Positions 4,201-29,473 are shown, numbered from the stretch's first letter. The stretch is DNA of 34,158 nucleotides from Flavobacteriales bacterium (GCA_020435995.1 JAGQYO010000037.1:1-34158); one strand, 5' to 3'. Numbers and translations: made by a program. Notes: a model not told the origin generated them from the letters alone.

Positions 4201-5634
4201 ATAACCAAACCGGGATACATATCCCAGTACCTCAGACTGAATTTCGGCCAGAGACAATCCTTTGCCTATAACCTCCACATCCATGTCTAGTGGGCCAATG
4301 TTGTTTTGCCCGATCAATTTACCAATTGCAAAATCATTCAATTTCAGCAAGCCATCATAATGAGCTGTATCCTTTATAAAACTGAAATCTAAATCCGTTT
4401 TTCCCCTACCAATTGAGGTAGAAAAAACGCTGTTAGCTTTGAAATTGCGATAAGTACCCGTAAAATGTCCATTTAATTTTACTGTTCCCAAGGCAAGTAA
4501 ATCTGCTGGTAATTCAAGGTAATTGGGCGTATCAAACGGTGGTAATTGGATTTTTCTAGCGTCATGAACGTCAACTCTCGAATTAGTCAATTCTAATTCA
4601 ATCAATGTTTTATCAATATCGGGAAGGCCCTTCATTTTTAGTGAACCGAATAACTGCGTTTTGTCGGACAAACTGATCGCCATTTTATTGAATTCGAACT
4701 GAGATACCGTTCCTTTAAATTCTCCTCTCAAATTCAGTTCCTGGTGCATTCCAATTAATGGACCAGAAAAAAAGGCGATATCCTTCATATTGATTGAGCT
4801 TAACTCAAGATGGGAAACCATCTCTACACTATCAATAAAATTGGAAAAACCTTCATAATTGTTATGGGCCAATGAATAATCTCCACCTATATTACTGTGT
4901 GGCGTCACTATTATAAAGCTATCTAGTAGCATTTTAGCATCCGTCATGTGAAACTTACCAGCAAGTGAATCAAGTTGAAAGCCTGATTTCTCATTTAGCG
5001 CCAATTTATCTACCGATGCTCGTATTTCCCCTTTATGAAAATAAAATTCTGAAGCTTGGAGATCAAATTTTTGAATATCCAAATCTGAAAAGTTCACGGA
5101 CCTTACAACGGAGGTATCGTTTTCATCCTGCCATTTGAAAGAAACATCGGTTAAACCAATCTTATGCGCTAAAATGGTAAAGTCTGGTGTTTCACTTTGA
5201 CTTGTGTCCTCACTAGCGAACTTATCGATTATGAATTGTAGGTTGAGTACAGAATCTCCCTTAAATTGTTTTAGGTAAAACTTGGTATGATAAAGCTTGA
5301 GTTCATCAACAGTAAAAACCATGTTATCAAAGTCGGGCCAAACCAAATCAAGGTCAAGAATTCCCATGTATAGTAGGGTGTCTTTTCTAAGATCTTCTAC
5401 ATACAATCCTTGAATGCCGATCCTATCGAAGGAATGAACTTGAATCTTTTGAAAAGAAACTTCAACATTATACTCATCAAAAAGGAAGTGTGAAACGCTA
5501 TTAGCAAGGTAAGTTTGCACTGCGCTGAACCTTAATGACAAGATAAAGACCACCAACATCAATAAAATGAGGGCGATTAAATTTCGGAATATCTTGAGTG
5601 CTTTTTTGATAATTTTGAGCGCTATTGCTATCAA
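1213..5634 (-). CDS. tamB: TamB-like translocation/assembly module, AsmA/DUF490 family
   Basis: A 1473-residue envelope protein, with an N-terminal membrane anchor at residues 15-35 followed by a very long periplasmic beta-rich region. The last 300 residues carry the TamB domain, including IFAKKFKLESGGKITWTGDP and a C-terminal part with the barrel-facing stretch after it. TamB proteins bridge inner and outer membrane and are linked to lipid transport and outer-membrane protein assembly. It is divergent from tsaD, an arrangement common in Bacteroidota. The start used is a TTG. A TACATTTG word on this strand at 5636-5643 ends one base before it, so either that word is chance or translation starts further in; no conventional start exists before residue 25. 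The gene converges with ribBA, with 6 bases between the stops. Confidence 0.9.
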   Translation of the reverse strand: MIAIALKIIKKALKIFRNLIALILLMLVVFILSLRFSAVQTYLANSVSHFLFDEYNVEVSFQKIQVHSFDRIGIQGLYVEDLRKDTLLYMGILDLDLVWPDFDNMVFTVDELKLYHTKFYLKQFKGDSVLNLQFIIDKFASEDTSQSETPDFTILAHKIGLTDVSFKWQDENDTSVVRSVNFSDLDIQKFDLQASEFYFHKGEIRASVDKLALNEKSGFQLDSLAGKFHMTDAKMLLDSFIIVTPHSNIGGDYSLAHNNYEGFSNFIDSVEMVSHLELSSINMKDIAFFSGPLIGMHQELNLRGEFKGTVSQFEFNKMAISLSDKTQLFGSLKMKGLPDIDKTLIELELTNSRVDVHDARKIQLPPFDTPNYLELPADLLALGTVKLNGHFTGTYRNFKANSVFSTSIGRGKTDLDFSFIKDTAHYDGLLKLNDFAIGKLIGQNNIGPLDMDVEVIGKGLSLAEIQSEVLGYVSRFGYNGYEYRGITVDAFIEKEKFEGFVNVKDKNADLSFNGSLDFSQKKPKLEFRLNVDSLFPARTNLVARDSSFFISGKISSDIVGLSIEDIVGDVSLDSLVIIEGDKKFETESIVLHSYFANDIRRLEFSSPIGSGLLRGNYKPGDVVSTIKHMMHGAMPSFFTMANPDTTEQTYSAFIELNDLNPLLEIFYPSLKQPYPVFIRSSFSSKEKEFTLSVTGKGVQWNSIEINEFLIDLNMKDSSVVQIVDFYQLAVNDEVIVQDVKTNISLGNDSMRTVFSMERNGVHKNHIYLDIRGGVLPGQEIFVRIDSSDVMVADSIWLIGKSNGIVIDTNKVTVKNLDIFSSGKYIKVNGVYSEIPGDELYVQIKGLNLANLSKISGDNGMKLNGEIGGVIAINSLATNPYIMSDIELKDIAINEKVLGTGVIESFWNHQSSRFEVDVDLTRYPDLLVKDTVKSLKLMGYYYPNGGDTAFDFFFSTEGLYLHMIEPIVSRFMDNIDGKIYGSLELQGGINSPVLVGELEFDSVQFRVDYLNTSYLIHNETLIFKEDWFGFNRLRLVDENGQGANVVGTIYHDKWRDMNFDVAINAKKFMALNTTSKDNELFYGNMFLTGDINVSGYADNVFLEIYAKTDNNSVINIPVVGGEDVGESDFITFVSPSWLNVEEIVEKKVDLTGINLLFDMEIDPTTKARIIFDEATGDIIETKGTGKIKMEIDQAANFTMFGDYEIVSGIYNFSYKNIFAKKFKLESGGKITWTGDPLDAFLDLTAIYDVKASIGPLLGDTTQTKKVDNECLLNISSKLSSPDFKFDIRLKNVGNDVEAQVKSQMPTQDEVNKQFFSLLLFNKYSPPESNFGGTGGGAWSSEMIANQLNMMLSKLDNDVVDIGFSQVTKDNVEVAVSKNLLNDRLIFESNVGVDNSANTQANNNNQSQFVGDFKLEYLIRADGRLRAKVFNRTESVSLESQNSGTQTQGVGVFFRHDFESYPALIRSIFQRKSKK

Positions 5635-6676: not shown

Positions 6677-7417
6677 ATGGCATCACGTTTAACTTTGCTT
6701 TTATGTCTTGTTGTTAAAGTTGCCATTTCGCAAAACCATTCTGAATATAGTCGTTCCAATGATTCATTAGCGTTTTCTGAATTTTCTCATAAAATAGAAA
6801 AACTTCCAAAATCGGTACTGTCCACCAACCCAATGTCGATGTTATTGTCCTCAGAAATTGCGTTTTTCACCAGCGAATATCGCTTAGTAGGGGAATTTGT
6901 AACAGGGCAAAAATCGAGTTTACTGTTGGGACTAAGCTACATGGGAATGGGACCTATTTTGGCAGCGGCCATAAACCAAGATACCTCTATGAAACAAGGG
7001 GGCTATAATAGCCAAAACTTCACCATGACGGGGTTTAGGCTTCAGCTAGGATACCGCTTCTACTTTCTTAAAAAAGGTATTGGCCCAAATCATGAAAGCT
7101 ACACCCCCGCACCGTTTGGGTTCTACATTTTTCCAAGGCTTTCCTATTCGAAAGCAGAATTTTACTTAACGAGCCAAAAATCTGACAGGTTGAGGATTCA
7201 GTTCTACAACGCCTCATTAAATACTGGATATCAGTTTCTTGTGGGTAAACACTTGGTCTTCGATGTTTTTGTTGGAGCTGGATATAAAAACAATCAAATA
7301 CTTGAAATTAATGGGTCAAGTACTAGCCAAATGAACGATCCAGAAATTGAAGAATCTTTTTTATTTGGAAGCCCATTGAAGATTAACATAGGAAGTGCAA
7401 TTGGGATTGCATTCTAA
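6677..7417 (+). CDS. putative outer-membrane beta-barrel protein, function unknown
   Basis: A 246-residue protein that starts 5 bases after tsaD and is probably co-transcribed with it. An uncleaved-looking hydrophobic N-terminus, LTLLLCLVVKVAISQ, fits a signal peptide cut near residue 19. The rest is rich in alternating aromatic and small residues: strands such as FRLQLGYRFYFLKKG, FGFYIFPRLSYSKAEFYL, ASLNTGYQFLVG and FDVFVGAGYK resemble short outer-membrane barrels of Bacteroidota (DUF3575/PorT-like size). It ends in a Phe after an alternating strand, as many outer-membrane barrels do. The family is not recognised with certainty and no enzymatic motif is visible. Confidence 0.65.
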   Translation: MASRLTLLLCLVVKVAISQNHSEYSRSNDSLAFSEFSHKIEKLPKSVLSTNPMSMLLSSEIAFFTSEYRLVGEFVTGQKSSLLLGLSYMGMGPILAAAINQDTSMKQGGYNSQNFTMTGFRLQLGYRFYFLKKGIGPNHESYTPAPFGFYIFPRLSYSKAEFYLTSQKSDRLRIQFYNASLNTGYQFLVGKHLVFDVFVGAGYKNNQILEINGSSTSQMNDPEIEESFLFGSPLKINIGSAIGIAF

Positions 7418-7496
7418 CCGATTTAAAAAAGAATAAGTCAAGCTATTTAATTAGTCACCGTAAAGCCCTTAATTTTAGGATTTATAATTTAAAATC

Positions 7497-7973
7497 ATGA
7501 AAAACAATTTATTGTTGTTGGGTTTATGTTGTCTTTTTGGCTCATGCGGAGCACAAAGTTCAAGCGAATTAAATAAACCAACATTTGAAATCGAGAAAAC
7601 CGAAGTAGAATGGAAAAAAGAGTTGAGCGAAGAAGCCTATCGCATTCTTCGCGAAAAGGATACCGAACAGGCTTGGTCGGGCGAATACAATGACAACAAA
7701 AGAGCCGGCGTTTATGTTTGTATTGGATGTTCAAACCCACTGTTTAACAGTGAAACCAAGTTTGATTCTGGGTCGGGATGGCCAAGTTTTTGGGATAAGT
7801 ACAAATCTCAAAGTATCCAATTAATACAAGATACAACGCTTGGAATGACGCGCTCGGAAGTAGTCTGCAACCGATGTGGTGGTCACTTAGGCCACGTATT
7901 TAATGATGGGCCAAAGCCAACAGGTTTGCGGTATTGTATTAATTCTGGAGCACTTCAATTCAAGCCAAAATAA
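7497..7973 (+). CDS. msrB: lipoprotein methionine-R-sulfoxide reductase B
   Basis: A 158-residue MsrB that reduces the R epimer of methionine sulfoxide in oxidised proteins. It has a lipoprotein signal, with lipobox LFGSC and lipidated Cys17, so it works outside the cytoplasm as an envelope repair enzyme. Zinc-binding pairs are Cys75/Cys78 and Cys124/Cys127. The catalytic residue is Cys147 in RYCINSGAL, and the GSGWPSF substrate loop lies near residue 92. No second redox Cys is evident besides the lipid-bearing one, so recycling would need an external thiol. The stop codon runs into a strong bidirectional terminator. Confidence 0.95.
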   Translation: MKNNLLLLGLCCLFGSCGAQSSSELNKPTFEIEKTEVEWKKELSEEAYRILREKDTEQAWSGEYNDNKRAGVYVCIGCSNPLFNSETKFDSGSGWPSFWDKYKSQSIQLIQDTTLGMTRSEVVCNRCGGHLGHVFNDGPKPTGLRYCINSGALQFKPK

Positions 7974-7998
7974 AAAAAGCCGCTATGCGGCTTTTTTT
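7972..7998. terminator. bidirectional Rho-independent terminator
   Basis: AAAAAAAGCCGC and GCGGCTTTTTTT form a perfect 12-base inverted repeat around the loop TAT. The A and T tracts let it stop both msrB on the plus strand and the five-gene minus-strand run ending at 8015. Confidence 0.93.
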
Positions 7999-8014
7999 TA
8001 AATTAATTTATAGA

Positions 8015-8539
8015 CTATTTAGTACCTGACGTGCTTGCATCACCAGAGCTCTCAAAAGCTTTTGAAACTTCATCTTCAAATCCAGTCATTAAAATCACAC
8101 AACCCTTAGCAAAGGAACCACCATTCTCATCAATATATGCTGGAATCAAGAAATCTACATAAACAGAGTATAAGCCGCTGCCTGGCTCTGGTTCAAAATT
8201 GAAATTCTTTTCAGAGCTATTAGCCTCAAACAACTTCTCTCTTTTTTTCTCTCCTTGAGGTTTGTCATAAATCTCAATCTTCAAGTCGTTAGGCAATAAC
8301 TCCGTATTAAATACAAATCGGTATCTAGCATCATAATAAAGCGGAATACTAATCTCCTCGATGTAATTGAACCTTTTATACGTAATACGCTTAACAACCA
8401 TGTTGGTGTACTTATACGGCACCAAAGCCTTGCGGCATTTGATTACAGGTTCAGTTTTGGGGCAGTAATCAGAAGATTGTGAAAATCCCTGACCGCCAAT
8501 GATTAAGCCTAAAAACAACGACAATATAACTTTCTTCAT
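8015..8539 (-). CDS. secreted family-A protein A1 (unrecognised)
   Basis: A 174-residue exported protein with a signal peptide cut after about residue 21 (GGQGFSQ). It belongs with 9443-9916 and 10899-11423 to one unrecognised family. Shared marks here are Cys26, Cys35, the YRFVFNTE block at 73-80, the DKP turn at 92-94, an IPA motif near 132, and GCVI with Cys147. The pattern predicts a small all-beta domain held by a Cys26/Cys147-type disulfide, which is inference. The C-terminal tail is Ser/Thr/Gly-rich. It is the last gene of the five-gene run, 11 bases after B1, and is followed by the terminator at 7972-7998. Function unknown. Confidence 0.8.
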   Translation of the reverse strand: MKKVILSLFLGLIIGGQGFSQSSDYCPKTEPVIKCRKALVPYKYTNMVVKRITYKRFNYIEEISIPLYYDARYRFVFNTELLPNDLKIEIYDKPQGEKKREKLFEANSSEKNFNFEPEPGSGLYSVYVDFLIPAYIDENGGSFAKGCVILMTGFEDEVSKAFESSGDASTSGTK

Positions 8540-8550
8540 AAACTTAAAGA

Positions 8551-9429
8551 CTATGGGTTAACGATCGACTTTCTAATTTCTACAATTGAATTAGATAATT
8601 GATCTAAATGCTCTTGTGATAATTTGTAATCCTTGAATGAAGCAATATTTTGCGCATTTTTATTCTCTTCTAACTGATTAAAAAACTGTTCAAGCTGAAC
8701 CAATTGTTTCCTAATCTCTTTAAGTTCATCCGTTTGATTCTCATTCGACCGAAGCGCCTTATTTAAATTATTAAGGATAGTCATTTGTTCCACGAGTCTT
8801 CCACTCAAGCTATGGCGATTCGACTTATCCGAAGCTTTCACGCCAAGATACATTCCTTCAACCCATGCACCAGCAAAGATCATGTAGGTCACATCCTGTA
8901 AATTGTTGTCGTCAACAAACATGTCTGTCCTCGCTTGAATATCAATCATCACATTAATTACAGAATCTCGGTTGCCAAGATTAGCTTCGAAACGCTGCAT
9001 CAAATCTTGAGATTCAAATACAGTTCCAAATCCAATTTTGTCACTTAATTCAGAAACAACTTTGAGGTAATTAACAGCATCTTGGCTTTGACCATTTAAC
9101 ACAATGTATGCTAAATCTGCTGAGTAAATTCCAAAATTTAGAATCTTAGAAGTTTGCGATACATATTTTTCAGAATTAGAAGTGGGGTTCGTGGCGCCTT
9201 TGATGTAATTCAATCCTGATTTTTGAAAGATAGACCCAATTTGAAGCGCTGAAGGGAGGTAAAAAGTCTCTACCATTTCTTCTTCGCCAGACTCAGCCAT
9301 TTCGTTCAACATTTCATCCTGAGCCCTTTCGGTCTCACTCATTTCTATATTGCCTTCATCGCCCGATGATCCGCATGAGGCCAAAAACAACCCCGAAATG
9401 ATTATACCTGTTACTATACGAAGCTTCAT
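8551..9429 (-). CDS. lipoprotein family-B protein B1 (unrecognised)
   Basis: A 292-residue lipoprotein. The start at 9429 gives MKLRIVTG and lipobox LASC with Cys19; the frame runs upstream to 9474, but that start would overlap A2 and bury the signal. After an acidic linker (residues 25-55) comes a predicted helical domain. It aligns without gaps to the paralogue at 9949-10830: PSALQI near 59, LNFGIYSADL at 97-106, DSVIN near 155, GAWVEGMY at 187-194 and RLVEQMTIL shortly after. Similar hypothetical lipoproteins with an NFG-YSADL block occur widely in Bacteroidota as far as I recall, but I know no function. It lies 13 bases after A2 and 11 bases before A1. Confidence 0.8.
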   Translation of the reverse strand: MKLRIVTGIIISGLFLASCGSSGDEGNIEMSETERAQDEMLNEMAESGEEEMVETFYLPSALQIGSIFQKSGLNYIKGATNPTSNSEKYVSQTSKILNFGIYSADLAYIVLNGQSQDAVNYLKVVSELSDKIGFGTVFESQDLMQRFEANLGNRDSVINVMIDIQARTDMFVDDNNLQDVTYMIFAGAWVEGMYLGVKASDKSNRHSLSGRLVEQMTILNNLNKALRSNENQTDELKEIRKQLVQLEQFFNQLEENKNAQNIASFKDYKLSQEHLDQLSNSIVEIRKSIVNP

Positions 9430-9442
9430 ATATTCTACTAGT

Positions 9443-9916
9443 TTAGTGTTTGAATCCAGAATAAAAGATAACACATCCCTTATCTATTTCATTTTTGTTT
9501 GTATTTCCCGATGCAGGGATGATATAATTTATATAAATACGGTTATGCGTTGAACTCTTAGGGGGATCAAAAACAAAATGTTTTTCATTGCTCGTTCCCG
9601 TATATATCTTCTTTCTTGATTCAACGTTTGCTGGTTTATCATAAATCTCTATTCTCACATTTTGAGACAAACCTTCCGTGTTAAACACAAACCTATAATT
9701 TGCCGAATGAAACAAGGGTACTTCTACTTCCTTAAATTGACTCTCACCTGTGAAAGTAATCTTCGTGATTTTAAAAGCATAATAGCTAAAAGGTTTTAAA
9801 TCCTTCTTGCATCTCTTTTGCAAATCGTCTCCCCATTTGCAAGCATCTTTTACAGTTTGGGCATGAGACATCATGCCAAACGTTGCCAATACAACTAATA
9901 TTACTAATCTTTTCAT
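9443..9916 (-). CDS. secreted family-A protein A2 (unrecognised)
   Basis: A 157-residue exported paralogue of A1 and A3, with signal peptide cut after MMSHAQ (about residue 20). Conserved features are Cys26 and Cys36, YRFVFNTE at 74-81 (identical to A1), the DKP turn at 93-95, IPA near 133 and GCVI with Cys148. It lacks the C-terminal tail of A1 and ends shortly after the GF motif. It is the central gene of the A3-B2-A2-B1-A1 run, 32 bases after B2 and 13 bases before B1. No catalytic motif was seen; a binding or structural role alongside the B lipoproteins is only inference. Confidence 0.8.
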   Translation of the reverse strand: MKRLVILVVLATFGMMSHAQTVKDACKWGDDLQKRCKKDLKPFSYYAFKITKITFTGESQFKEVEVPLFHSANYRFVFNTEGLSQNVRIEIYDKPANVESRKKIYTGTSNEKHFVFDPPKSSTHNRIYINYIIPASGNTNKNEIDKGCVIFYSGFKH

Positions 9917-9948
9917 ATTCTCTTTCTCATTATTTCAATCCCGCTCTA

Positions 9949-10830
9949 CTATATTCCTTGCTTTGTAATCCCTTTGCGGATACCCGCCATTAAATCATAC
10001 AACTTTACAAAATGTGATGTACTCATTACCGAAATATCATAAGAATATTCATCATCTCCTTTTAATCCTTCAATAGAATCAAAGTAAGTTTGAACTTCTA
10101 CCAATTTTTTCTGAAGCCCCTCTGTTTCAGCATTTTTATTTGGTTGAATTTCTAACCCTTTTATAAGGTTCGGTAAAATCGTCATTTGTTCAACAAGACG
10201 CTCTCTTAACATTTCATTTTCACTAGCCCTAGCAGCGTCCAAGCCTATGTACATTCCTTCAACCCATGCACCAGTAAATATAATCATTGCTGTATGTTCT
10301 TCATTTTGTTCAGCAATCAACATATCTGTTTTTTCTTGAAATTCGAGCATAATGTTAATTACCGAATCTTGTTTACCGATATTCTTTTCAAATCTTTCAA
10401 AAATAGGACCAGCATTAAAAATACCAGATAAACCAGTTTCATCAGCCAATTGTCTAATTGACTTTAGATATTGAATAGACAGTTGTGATTGGTCATTCAG
10501 AACACAATAGAATAAATCCGCGCTATAAGCTCCAAAATTCAAAAGTTTTTCAAATTTTGAATAATAATTTGCCGTATTAGCAGGATTGTTACAAATCCCA
10601 TCCACAAACACAAGGCCCGAGCTTCTAAAAATACTACTTATCTGAAGAGCTGATGGAATAATAAATTCAGGCTCGTCTGAATCTTCCTCCGATACAACAA
10701 CGTCTTCTGTAAGCGCTGAGTCATTACTTTCTGTAGGATTAGCATCACCCATTTCTGCACCTCCTCCACACGACATTGTCAAACCTGTAACCAAGACCAA
10801 TGCAATGAAGCTATACTTTTTTAATTTCAT
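9949..10830 (-). CDS. lipoprotein family-B protein B2 (unrecognised)
   Basis: A 293-residue lipoprotein with lipobox TMSC (Cys21), an acidic Ser/Glu/Asp linker at residues 25-55 and a helical domain colinear with B1. LNFGAYSADL at 97-106 and GAWVEGMY at 187-194 fall at exactly the same residue numbers as in B1, so the two are direct paralogues. A TATATTCG word at 10854-10861 on this strand, one base off TAnnTTTG, could be an internal promoter in the 68-base gap after A3. Function unknown; the position suggests it works in the envelope with the A proteins. Confidence 0.8.
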   Translation of the reverse strand: MKLKKYSFIALVLVTGLTMSCGGGAEMGDANPTESNDSALTEDVVVSEEDSDEPEFIIPSALQISSIFRSSGLVFVDGICNNPANTANYYSKFEKLLNFGAYSADLFYCVLNDQSQLSIQYLKSIRQLADETGLSGIFNAGPIFERFEKNIGKQDSVINIMLEFQEKTDMLIAEQNEEHTAMIIFTGAWVEGMYIGLDAARASENEMLRERLVEQMTILPNLIKGLEIQPNKNAETEGLQKKLVEVQTYFDSIEGLKGDDEYSYDISVMSTSHFVKLYDLMAGIRKGITKQGI

Positions 10831-10898
10831 ATTTGTTTAATTGTGTTTCGTTGCGAATATAAAAATTTATAGGATTAAGCTTTCCAGAGTTATTGCAA

Positions 10899-11423
10899 CT
10901 AAAAATCTAAATCTGAATAGCCTGAACCGATTACTATGCACCCTCGGTTTCGAACATCATTCTGATACTCTTTATCTGCGGGTATTTTAATTGTGACATA
11001 AATTCTCGTTCCTGAATAATCTTCTGGAGATTCATAACTTAAATGCTTATCACTCGACTCCTTGAGAATTTTTGCCGAACTCTGCTTATGTGGCTTATCC
11101 GATAACCTGATATCAACGTTGGTTGGCATTCCTTCAGAGTTGATGATGAATTTATATTTAGTAGAATGGTAAATGGGAACAGCAAACTCGACTACCTGAG
11201 AATATGATTTATAATGAATCTTTTGGGTACTGATCTTATCCAATTTAAATGGCGTTACGTCCGCTTTAATTTTCTCCACGGATTCTTCCCTTTTACACAA
11301 ATCCGATATCTTCAAGCTCGACTCAATGACATCATCGGATTGTTTTTTATCTTTTTTCTGACCATACCCTTGAAATGATAGACATAAAAAAAAGATACAT
11401 AAAAATGAAAAAAATCTGCTCAT
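10899..11423 (-). CDS. secreted family-A protein A3 (unrecognised, most divergent)
   Basis: A 174-residue exported protein, the first gene of the five-gene run. The signal peptide is Phe/Cys-rich and is cut near GYGQ (residue 22). A Lys/Ser-rich linker to about residue 40 is absent from A1 and A2. Family marks are Cys43, the YKFIINSE block at 90-97 (YRFVFNTE in A1/A2), SDKP at 108-111, IPA near 147 and GCIV with Cys162. The second N-terminal Cys found in A1 and A2 is missing, which supports pairing of the first and last Cys. A TATTTTCG word at 11437-11444 on this strand, one base off TAnnTTTG, lies 13 bases upstream of the start. Confidence 0.78.
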   Translation of the reverse strand: MSRFFSFLCIFFLCLSFQGYGQKKDKKQSDDVIESSLKISDLCKREESVEKIKADVTPFKLDKISTQKIHYKSYSQVVEFAVPIYHSTKYKFIINSEGMPTNVDIRLSDKPHKQSSAKILKESSDKHLSYESPEDYSGTRIYVTIKIPADKEYQNDVRNRGCIVIGSGYSDLDF

Positions 11424-11596
11424 ACTATATACAGTTCGAAAATAGGCTTTATCAATTTCATGGGCGAAAATACTAAGTTTTTTCTCTTTTAAAAGTCCTG
11501 ACGTGATTTTAATTTTACAAGAAAATCTAACTTAAATAACTGTTTTTCATGCTTTTAACTATTTTTTCACTTATATCTGTATTATATAAAGTTTTA

Positions 11597-11604
11597 TATT
11601 TTTG
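11597..11604 (+). promoter_or_regulatory. -7 element of the antiporter gene
   Basis: TATTTTTG matches TAnnTTTG exactly, leaving a leader of roughly 40 bases before the start at 11649. A weak TCTG lies 17 bases upstream as a possible -33. The rest of the 225-base gap is very AT-rich, with no other structure seen. Confidence 0.4.
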
Positions 11605-11648
11605 GTCAAGAACACTCAGAATTAATTTCAAATTTAATTTATCTCAAA

Positions 11649-13211
11649 ATGACAAGAATTGCTCAATACTTAATGATGACAATGGCTGCCATGCTTTTTG
11701 CTTCGTTTTCATACGCTAATTTCAATCCCGTGCCAAGCTTTAGTGGTACCCAACAAATTGTTGCATCTGTAGATGACTCCGGTTTTGGTTTAGGCCAACA
11801 CGATGCAGAAGAAGTTGAACAGGCCCCTCAAGAAGAAGCATCCCATAGCGGACATGCGGACAAAGGCATTGGGGTACTAGATCTCATTGCTATTTTGGTG
11901 CTATTAGCTGCCGTTTTTACTTTTATAAACATCCATTACATAAAACTACCTGGCACCATTGGACTTATGATGCAAGCTCTTGTTTTAAGCCTACTAATTG
12001 TTGGTATCGGGATGTTTGTTCCAGCCATACGAGAAGGTGCCGAAGACATCATGCGTAACGTGGATTTTAGTGAGGTTCTGCTTAATATTATGTTGAGTTT
12101 CTTGCTTTATGCTGGGGCACTTCATGTGGACATCGATAAACTAAAAGAAGAATCGGCCTCTGTATTTATACTAGCTGTATTCGGCACGCTTTTGTCTACT
12201 TTTATTGTAGCTACCTCTATTTATTATCTTCTTGGTTTCTTTGACCTTGGCTTCAATATTAAGTTTATCCACTGCTTGTTGTTGGGGGCATTGATATCTC
12301 CAACTGATCCAATTGCCGTACTAGCCATCTTAAAAACGACTAATATTTCAAAAAACCTTCAGATAAAAATTGAAGGAGAATCATTGTTTAATGATGGAAT
12401 TGGTGTTGTAGTTTTCTTAACCATCTTAGCTATTGCTACCGGTGGGAGTGGCCATGGTGGCGGTGCTGCCGAAGAAATTACCGCAGGAAGTGTTGCATTA
12501 TTGTTTGGAAAAGAAGTTTTCGGTGGTGTACTTTTAGGAATCGCATTTGGTGCCCTAGGATATTGGTTATTAGTTGTGATTGATAATGCCCATGAAGAAC
12601 TTGAGGTTCTTACCACACTTGCTTTGGTCCTTGTAGGAACTCAAATTGCCGTTCACCTTCATATCTCAGCGCCACTCGCTATGGTAGTTATGGGTCTTAT
12701 TATCGGAAGAGGAAATGCCAGTCACGGAGAATTGGATGCCGATGGAAATGAAATTGAGGGAATTGCGGGTGAATATGTAATGAAGTTCTGGCATTTGGTT
12801 GATGAGGCCATGAATGCCATTCTCTTCATTTTAATTGGTCTGGAAATGTTGATCATCATTGAGGCAAGTTCCACGGCATTCCTAGTAATAGGGGTCATTA
12901 GTATTTTCATCATTCTTTGTGGCCGCTTTTTGGGTGTTGTTATCCCAGTTACTGCGCTTGATTTTTTCAAAAAATCGGATAAAGGAACCATACCAATTCT
13001 TACTTGGGGTGGTTTAAGAGGAGGTATTTCTATTGCCTTGGCTCTTTCACTTTCGGCATCCGACCTTGGAAAAGGGGATATAGAATTAGGACGTTCCATC
13101 AAGTACCTAATTGTAACTATCACATATTGTGTGGTTGTGTTCTCTATCCTTGTTCAAGGTTTAACTATTGAGAAACTGGTAAACAAATACTTAAAAGACG
13201 CAGAGAACTAG
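11649..13211 (+). CDS. CPA1-type Na+/H+ antiporter with N-terminal signal-like extension
   Basis: A 520-residue membrane antiporter exchanging Na+ (or K+) for protons, for pH and salt homeostasis. The CPA1/NhaP core begins near residue 75 and has about 12 hydrophobic segments. It includes the ion-site motif SPTDP at 217-221, GESLFND from residue 243, and WGGLRGGISIALALSLS near the end, all standard for the family. Residues 1-24 look like a cleavable signal peptide (SFSYANF). They are followed by about 45 mostly acidic and His-containing residues (QHDAEEVEQAP, SHSGHADKG) before the first core helix. That would put an acidic segment outside the membrane. The gene is monocistronic, ending in the terminator at 13230-13264. 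Confidence 0.92.
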   Translation: MTRIAQYLMMTMAAMLFASFSYANFNPVPSFSGTQQIVASVDDSGFGLGQHDAEEVEQAPQEEASHSGHADKGIGVLDLIAILVLLAAVFTFINIHYIKLPGTIGLMMQALVLSLLIVGIGMFVPAIREGAEDIMRNVDFSEVLLNIMLSFLLYAGALHVDIDKLKEESASVFILAVFGTLLSTFIVATSIYYLLGFFDLGFNIKFIHCLLLGALISPTDPIAVLAILKTTNISKNLQIKIEGESLFNDGIGVVVFLTILAIATGGSGHGGGAAEEITAGSVALLFGKEVFGGVLLGIAFGALGYWLLVVIDNAHEELEVLTTLALVLVGTQIAVHLHISAPLAMVVMGLIIGRGNASHGELDADGNEIEGIAGEYVMKFWHLVDEAMNAILFILIGLEMLIIIEASSTAFLVIGVISIFIILCGRFLGVVIPVTALDFFKKSDKGTIPILTWGGLRGGISIALALSLSASDLGKGDIELGRSIKYLIVTITYCVVVFSILVQGLTIEKLVNKYLKDAEN

Positions 13212-29059: not shown

Positions 29060-29473
29060 ATGAAAGCATCTGACTTATTTGTTAAGGCCCTCGAAAACGA
29101 AGGCGTAGAGTACATTTTTGGCATTCCAGGAGAAGAAAACCTTGATATTTTGGATTCGCTGCGCAACTCAAGTATCGAATTGATTTTAACGCGGCACGAA
29201 CAAGGTGCGGGTTTTATGGCCGCAACTTATGGCCGACTAACCGGAAAACCCTGGGTTTGTATGTCGAACTTAGGGCCTGGAACAACTAACTTAGTTACGC
29301 TGGCTGCTTATGCGCTGAATACAATTAAGCGTTTGAATACAATCGCTTTTAGGGTAAACTGGATGCCATTTGGTGGTCGCGATTCGACAGGGATAGGCAT
29401 GGGACGAATTCAGTACTCAATAAACGAAATGACCCACGAAAAACTGATGGTCATCAAAAGTCCAATGCTTTAA
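29060..29473 (+). pseudogene. in-frame fusion scar: acetolactate synthase-like start + aldehyde dehydrogenase-like end
   Basis: A 137-codon open frame. Residues 1-86 are the beginning of a thiamine-diphosphate enzyme of the acetolactate synthase type: KASDLFVKALENEGVEYIFG, the catalytic-type Glu of GIPGEENLD, RHEQGAGFMA and GPGTTNLVTLAAYAL. Residues 96-137 are the C-terminus of an aldehyde dehydrogenase of the NADP-GAPDH-like group: FRVNWMPFGG, DSTGIGMG, YSINEMTHEKLMVI. Parent proteins are about 550 and 475 residues, so almost all of both is missing. The junction encodes LNTI-KR-LNTI from a 10-base direct repeat. The product cannot perform either reaction. It is best read as the remnant of a deletion joining two adjacent genes; an assembly artefact is the alternative. 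Confidence 0.78.
29316..29343. repeat. 10-base direct repeat at the fusion junction
   Basis: TGAATACAAT occurs at 29316-29325 and 29334-29343, separated by TAAGCGTT. It lies precisely where the acetolactate synthase-like part changes to the aldehyde dehydrogenase-like part. Confidence 0.85.

Follow-up and report, generated by a model that had tools for sequence, protein, structure and literature searches.

The five minus-strand genes described here most plausibly, though by a narrow preference, form an array grown from a two-gene envelope module, in which a lipoprotein (B) and a small secreted protein (A) work together with an ABCG-like half transporter that has a TerB-like N-terminus. Comparison of genes and gene neighbourhoods across 149 relatives' genomes, several of them incomplete, shows that B and A form a conserved unit and that genes for B and for this transporter are linked and occur together throughout the class. 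The initial annotation of the same DNA had proposed that each lipoprotein acts with a cognate secreted partner at the cell envelope, an interpretation that our results partly support.

The window, that is, the whole stretch of DNA analysed, is a contig of 34,158 nucleotides (C138) from a Flavobacteriales genome (G000) of 3.76 Mb and 98.9% completeness. All five open reading frames reported in the first annotation were confirmed; they are closely spaced and transcribed in the order A1-B1-A2-B2-A3 (Table 1). The intergenic gaps of 68, 32, 13 and 11 bases are correct as reported, provided that B2 begins at the ATG at 9429, which is best taken as its start, since reading from the GTG at 9474 would make it overlap A2. 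A terminator had been said to close the run, and a hairpin with a 12-pair stem was found at 7998-7972; since a T tail is present on each strand, it can also serve the MsrB-like gene that ends at 7973 on the plus strand. Promoter-like matches around the array were not above shuffled expectation. Elsewhere in the window, at 29060-29473, a 137-residue ORF resembles the N-terminal part of an enzyme of the acetolactate-synthase type before a stop ends it, and is possibly a truncated gene.

Table 1. Features of the array and its flanks, in window coordinates.
Feature	Coordinates	Strand	Evidence
A1, small secreted protein, 174 aa, first of the run	10899..11423	(-)	ORF; A profile match, E 1e-45
B1, helical lipoprotein, 293 aa, lipobox Cys21	9949..10830	(-)	ORF, alignment, AlphaFold2, tree
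A2, small secreted beta-sandwich protein, 157 aa, 3' partner of B1	9443..9916	(-)	ORF, alignment, AlphaFold2, tree
B2, helical lipoprotein, 292 aa from ATG at 9429, lipobox Cys19	8551..9429	(-)	ORF, alignment
A3, small secreted protein, 174 aa, 3' partner of B2	8015..8539	(-)	ORF, profile match, pairwise alignment
Intrinsic terminator-like hairpin ending the run, two-sided	7972..7998	(-)	Stem search and inspection by eye
Candidate promoter TTGACC-17-TATAAT, ~160 bases 5' of A1	11581..11609	(-)	Motif match
Na+/H+ exchanger-family antiporter gene, flanking synteny marker	11649..13211	(+)	PF00999, E 3e-53

Aligned over 293 columns, B1 and B2 have 40% identity (E 2e-70), and both carry LNFG-YSADL at 97-106 and GAWVEGMY at 187-194, as first noticed; their alignment, described earlier as gapless, is so over about residues 57-256, while at full length it has nine gap positions in the 293 columns. 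In two alignments the lipobox cysteine is kept in every B protein, and the conserved residues include aromatic and acidic members, among them FxGxWxE. Immediately past the lipobox, glycine occupies position +2 in 88 of 139 B proteins and acidic residues account for only 6-32% at +2 to +6, so that no simple +2 or acidic export signal is clear in this set. The AlphaFold2 model of B is all-helical (mean pLDDT 89). Pfam gave no match among 75 B proteins, NCBIfam holds no B family and returned only noise below cut-off, and neither Foldseek nor VIA-align produced a convincing fold relative; matches to cytochrome bd (Z 6.8) and to bacteriorhodopsin-type proteins were rejected as helix-packing noise. 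The best Foldseek match is EfeO (E 0.13), and VIA-align aligned 156 residues of EfeM at Z 5.6 and rmsd 7.2, from which B could be read as a distant periplasmic relative of the metal-binding imelysin/EfeO proteins, and the module as one that acquires metal. However, these scores lie within the noise range for helical proteins and B has no Pfam match, and we regard this reading as exceedingly unlikely. The imelysin (Peptidase_M75, PF09375) assignment was also rejected by hhalign, which with 29 imelysin proteins of relatives aligned the signal peptide only, at a probability of 2%.

The A proteins form a second family, not related to B. A2 shares 36% identity with A3 (E 2e-35) and 33% with A1 (E 1e-25), the three pairwise values spanning 31-36%. 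The pattern originally proposed for them, Cys...YRFVFNTE...DKP...GC(V/I)I, captures a homology that is clear, but it is loose in A1, which reads YKFIINSE in place of YRFVFNTE. Two cysteines, C26 and C148, are invariant in the alignment, one near the mature N-terminus and the other in the GC(V/I) motif, and AlphaFold2 gives a confident beta-sandwich (mean pLDDT 95). Neither NCBIfam nor Pfam holds an A family, both returning only noise below cut-off, and a sequence search of solved structures with the A and B profiles matched neither; the two families are indeed unrecognised in Pfam and NCBIfam, as the initial annotation had it. A distant kinship of A with PPC domains (PF04151) is suggested by profile-profile comparison with the PPC domains of relatives, which covers 72 columns at a probability of 67% (E 5e-5). 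No A protein scores over the Pfam gathering cut-off: 2 of 103 match below it (best E 4e-4), and the PPC profile retrieves one A protein at 23.3 bits against a cut-off of 25.9. Structural searches of A with Foldseek and VIA-align returned a spread of unrelated beta-sandwiches; in VIA-align, Ena2A and the TMED1 GOLD domain reached Z 9.1 at 6-11% identity, and many unrelated sandwiches Z 7-9.

The pairing of the two families extends far beyond this genome, the opposite of the rare adjacency that, by the initial annotation's own account, would have refuted it. B is present in 103 of the 149 genomes, with up to eight copies per genome; A was found in 51 by single-sequence search, and profile search adds remote A genes beside remote B genes. 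The B genes were sorted into 91 distinct close and 91 divergent ones. A same-strand A gene adjoins 89 of the 91 close B genes, lying downstream in 86 and only upstream in 3; of the two B genes left over, one runs off its contig. A also lies directly downstream of 67 of the 91 divergent B genes; given these proportions, the linkage is not due to chance. Because A lies mostly downstream of B, the basic unit is B-then-A and not the A-B pair supposed initially: B comes first in 86 of the 91 close loci and in each of the 67 divergent ones with an adjoining A. The members of 153 BA pairs are separated by a median of 12 bases, and distances within A increase with those within B (Mantel r 0.86, permutation maximum 0.05), a correlation that is partly shared ancestry. 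The arrangements seen are BA, BAA, BAAA, ABABA and BABABA; one B followed by three tandem A genes occurs at L077-L080, L082, L085, L092 and L102, and A copy number therefore varies independently of B.

Several loci outside the array were also recorded. In this genome, contig C11 (L179) carries two B paralogs with no adjoining A, at 4663-5568 on the minus strand and 7261-8085 on the plus strand, about 1.7 kb apart, and a third BA locus, of the divergent class-wide type, lies on contig C110 (L180, 6272-7628, minus strand) between dprA-like and TatD-like genes. In several genomes B or BA directly adjoins an apparent polA (L189, L166, L169, L172, L173), and another B/BA subtype adjoins a prfC-like gene (L196, L197).

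The ABABA order is kept in seven further genomes and appears as BABABA in an eighth (G007); the nearest organism-named records with the same array are three Crocinitomicaceae metagenome assemblies (L062, L065, L067), and the host therefore most likely belongs near that family within the Flavobacteriales. Trees built from 37 B and 45 A proteins sort the genes according to their place in the array, with A1, A2, A3, B1 and B2 each forming one group across nine genomes (G000, G002, G005, G007, G009, G011, G017, G022 and G025). The expansion is thus old and was kept without visible shuffling, and the repeated, order-preserving duplication postulated at the outset is borne out as one old event. The A1 clade is common to G000 and G007, and in G007 a B gene precedes A1. 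Since B precedes A nearly everywhere and G007 has this extra B, we read the array as (B)A-BA-BA, in which A1 is probably the orphaned partner of a B gene lost in most lineages; the alternative is that the extra B was gained in G007.

The age of the array also bears on whether it might be an arms-race cassette, in which A would act as a secreted effector or a toxin of bacteriocin type and B as the lipoprotein that carries it or confers immunity. A small secreted partner adjoining a lipoprotein in a tandem array would fit such a cassette, as would the faster evolution of A (mean column identity 27%, against 37% for B). We nevertheless find it very unlikely: nine genomes keep position and order and show no recent exchange, A has a single fold from end to end and lacks a variable toxin terminus, B has no matches in phages or plasmids, and neither A nor B has PADLOC matches. 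A mobile element was rejected on the same absence of B relatives from phages and plasmids, and anti-phage defence with 0 PADLOC families for all five array proteins.

The main clue, missed by the initial annotation, is an association with an ABCG-like transporter and with the regulators SiaB and SiaC. A gene that recurs beside divergent B loci encodes about 1000 residues, with an ATPase domain ahead of an ABC-2 membrane domain, and its product most closely resembles ABCG/White half transporters. Its ortholog in this genome (contig C122, 5327-8329) matches PF00005 at 263-409 and PF01061 at 556-775 in one chain, both over cut-off, and a homolog in G003 matches TIGR00955 at 243.7 bits (E 4e-72), below the curated cut-off of 736. 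In one member the N-terminal region gave a weak match to TerB (E 0.0017, below cut-off); PADLOC matches of the transporter to mad3/mad8 are confined to the ATPase region.

The linkage counts are lower bounds. A transporter gene lies within 3 kb of 38 of the 91 divergent and 5 of the 91 close B genes, and of the 129 transporter genes in the 149 genomes at least 56 lie within 6 kb of a B gene, where chance would give 0.8. Presence and absence of the two agree in 141 of 149 genomes (97 with both, 44 with neither), leaving six with B only, four of which are 83% complete or less, and two with the transporter only; Fisher's test on this co-occurrence (1e-28) ignores shared ancestry and is descriptive only. 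Within the window's own family (f1), a close-type BA pair stands beside the transporter in eight genomes (G001, G004, G010, G014, G018, G019, G023 and G007). The order in G007 is BABABA, Na+/H+ antiporter, transporter, smpB, the array being two genes from the transporter. In the window the array adjoins the Na+/H+ exchanger gene that it has in common with G007, and the orthologous transporter, sister to that of G007 (SH-aLRT 99), adjoins smpB on C122. Comparison of the two arrangements indicates that array and transporter were probably once neighbours and have since parted in this lineage; neither of the two transporter genes of this genome now adjoins B or A. In seven f1 genomes (L272-L277 and L285) the ABCG-like gene has a pyridine nucleotide-disulphide oxidoreductase gene as its neighbour, which in six of the seven separates BA from the transporter. 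At L181, L183 and L184, B adjoins the ABCG-like gene with no A found, and B may therefore be the core partner of the transporter.

These counts must be weighed against another reading, in which the B/A pairs are lipoprotein-secreted complexes of the surface or periplasm, serving for example adhesion or envelope maintenance, functionally separate from the transporter and linked to it by inherited local gene order. Most close BA loci are not near a transporter (86 of the 91 have none within 3 kb), and BA stands beside many unrelated genes, such as polA, prfC and dprA. However, the linkage of BA to the transporter is found again in distant families whose gene order differs, and neither its excess over expectation nor the matching presence and absence of the two genes speaks for such a separation, which we judge unlikely, if well short of negligible. 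Also counting against our preferred reading are the B genes without A, two of them in this genome, the position of both transporter genes of this genome away from any B or A gene, and the absence of SiaC from several f1 genomes that keep B and the transporter.

SiaC (PF09345) and a SiaB-family kinase are encoded near many B-linked transporters, and some clusters include a HAMP/PAS/GAF-SpoIIE protein that would take the part of SiaA. At least 31 of the 129 transporter genes in the 149 genomes have SiaC within 4.5 kb, against 0.4 expected. In one relative (L182), SiaC (PF09345, 131 bits, cut-off 24.5), SiaB kinase (NF038262, 180.5 bits, cut-off 85) and a SiaA-like PP2C phosphatase with SpoIIE and HAMP domains are encoded together; the window holds no such cluster, and the SiaC of this genome lies on contig C150, away from the array. 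The Sia part is not obligatory, since several f1 genomes keep B and the transporter with SiaC absent. In the open-licence literature we found no description of SiaB/SiaC or ABCG systems in Bacteroidota; an earlier account under a locus name is possible.

Taking the module to work with the transporter, B and A would be its envelope partners, which either exchange a substrate with it or report on it. A transporter dimer would drive the substrate across the inner membrane. ABCG transporters move sterols and lipids in eukaryotes, and from this likeness one may guess, and only guess, that the substrate is lipid-like. B, lipid-anchored at a membrane and facing the periplasm or the surface, would receive or sense the substrate through its conserved aromatic and acidic residues; A, presumably stabilised by a disulphide, would dock on B, as their conserved pairing suggests, and then deliver to, or bind, the outside. 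Where the cluster also encodes a phosphatase-kinase switch of the SiaA/SiaB/SiaC type, as in many lineages, this would regulate how active the transporter is, possibly by way of its TerB-like region; the copies within ABABA would have diverged for different substrates or surfaces.

A more far-reaching version, which we put forward tentatively and hold to be rather doubtful, makes B and A the periplasmic and surface parts of a so far undescribed ABCG-type transport machine, bacterial and class-wide, which a Sia serine/threonine switch would gate. It would give Bacteroidota a route of their own for carrying lipids or other hydrophobic cargo to the outer surface or away from it, and would have been expanded here into paralogous sets. 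The A and B families occur in most of the Bacteroidota genomes examined, unnamed in Pfam and NCBIfam and with no assigned role, and linking them to a single transporter and a single regulator merges three unknowns into a system that can be tested. If true, it would amount to a class-wide envelope transport route of Bacteroidota built on a bacterial relative of the eukaryotic sterol/lipid ABCG transporters.

A, the transporter and the Sia cluster each have a nearest known counterpart, from which they differ. A resembles the PPC domain in its modelled beta-sandwich and in a distant profile-profile match; however, it is free-standing, with a signal peptide and a conserved cysteine pair, and has no peptidase attached. 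The linked transporter has the order of ABC domain and membrane domain of ABCG/White-type half transporters (TIGR00955), but it is bacterial, has about 1000 residues with an extra N-terminal region of about 240, and is tied to B, A and Sia genes. In Pseudomonas aeruginosa, SiaD is controlled by SiaC, whose phosphorylation depends on SiaA and SiaB (PMC7647112, PMC8457831), and DUF1987/SiaC proteins have been suggested to commonly modulate adjacent proteins (PMC8457831). As in that SiaABCD switch, a SiaB-family kinase and SiaC are clustered here, with a SpoIIE-type phosphatase bearing HAMP in L182; however, whereas the target there is the diguanylate cyclase SiaD, the neighbours here are the ABCG-like transporter, B and A, and in this genome the Sia genes do not adjoin the array.
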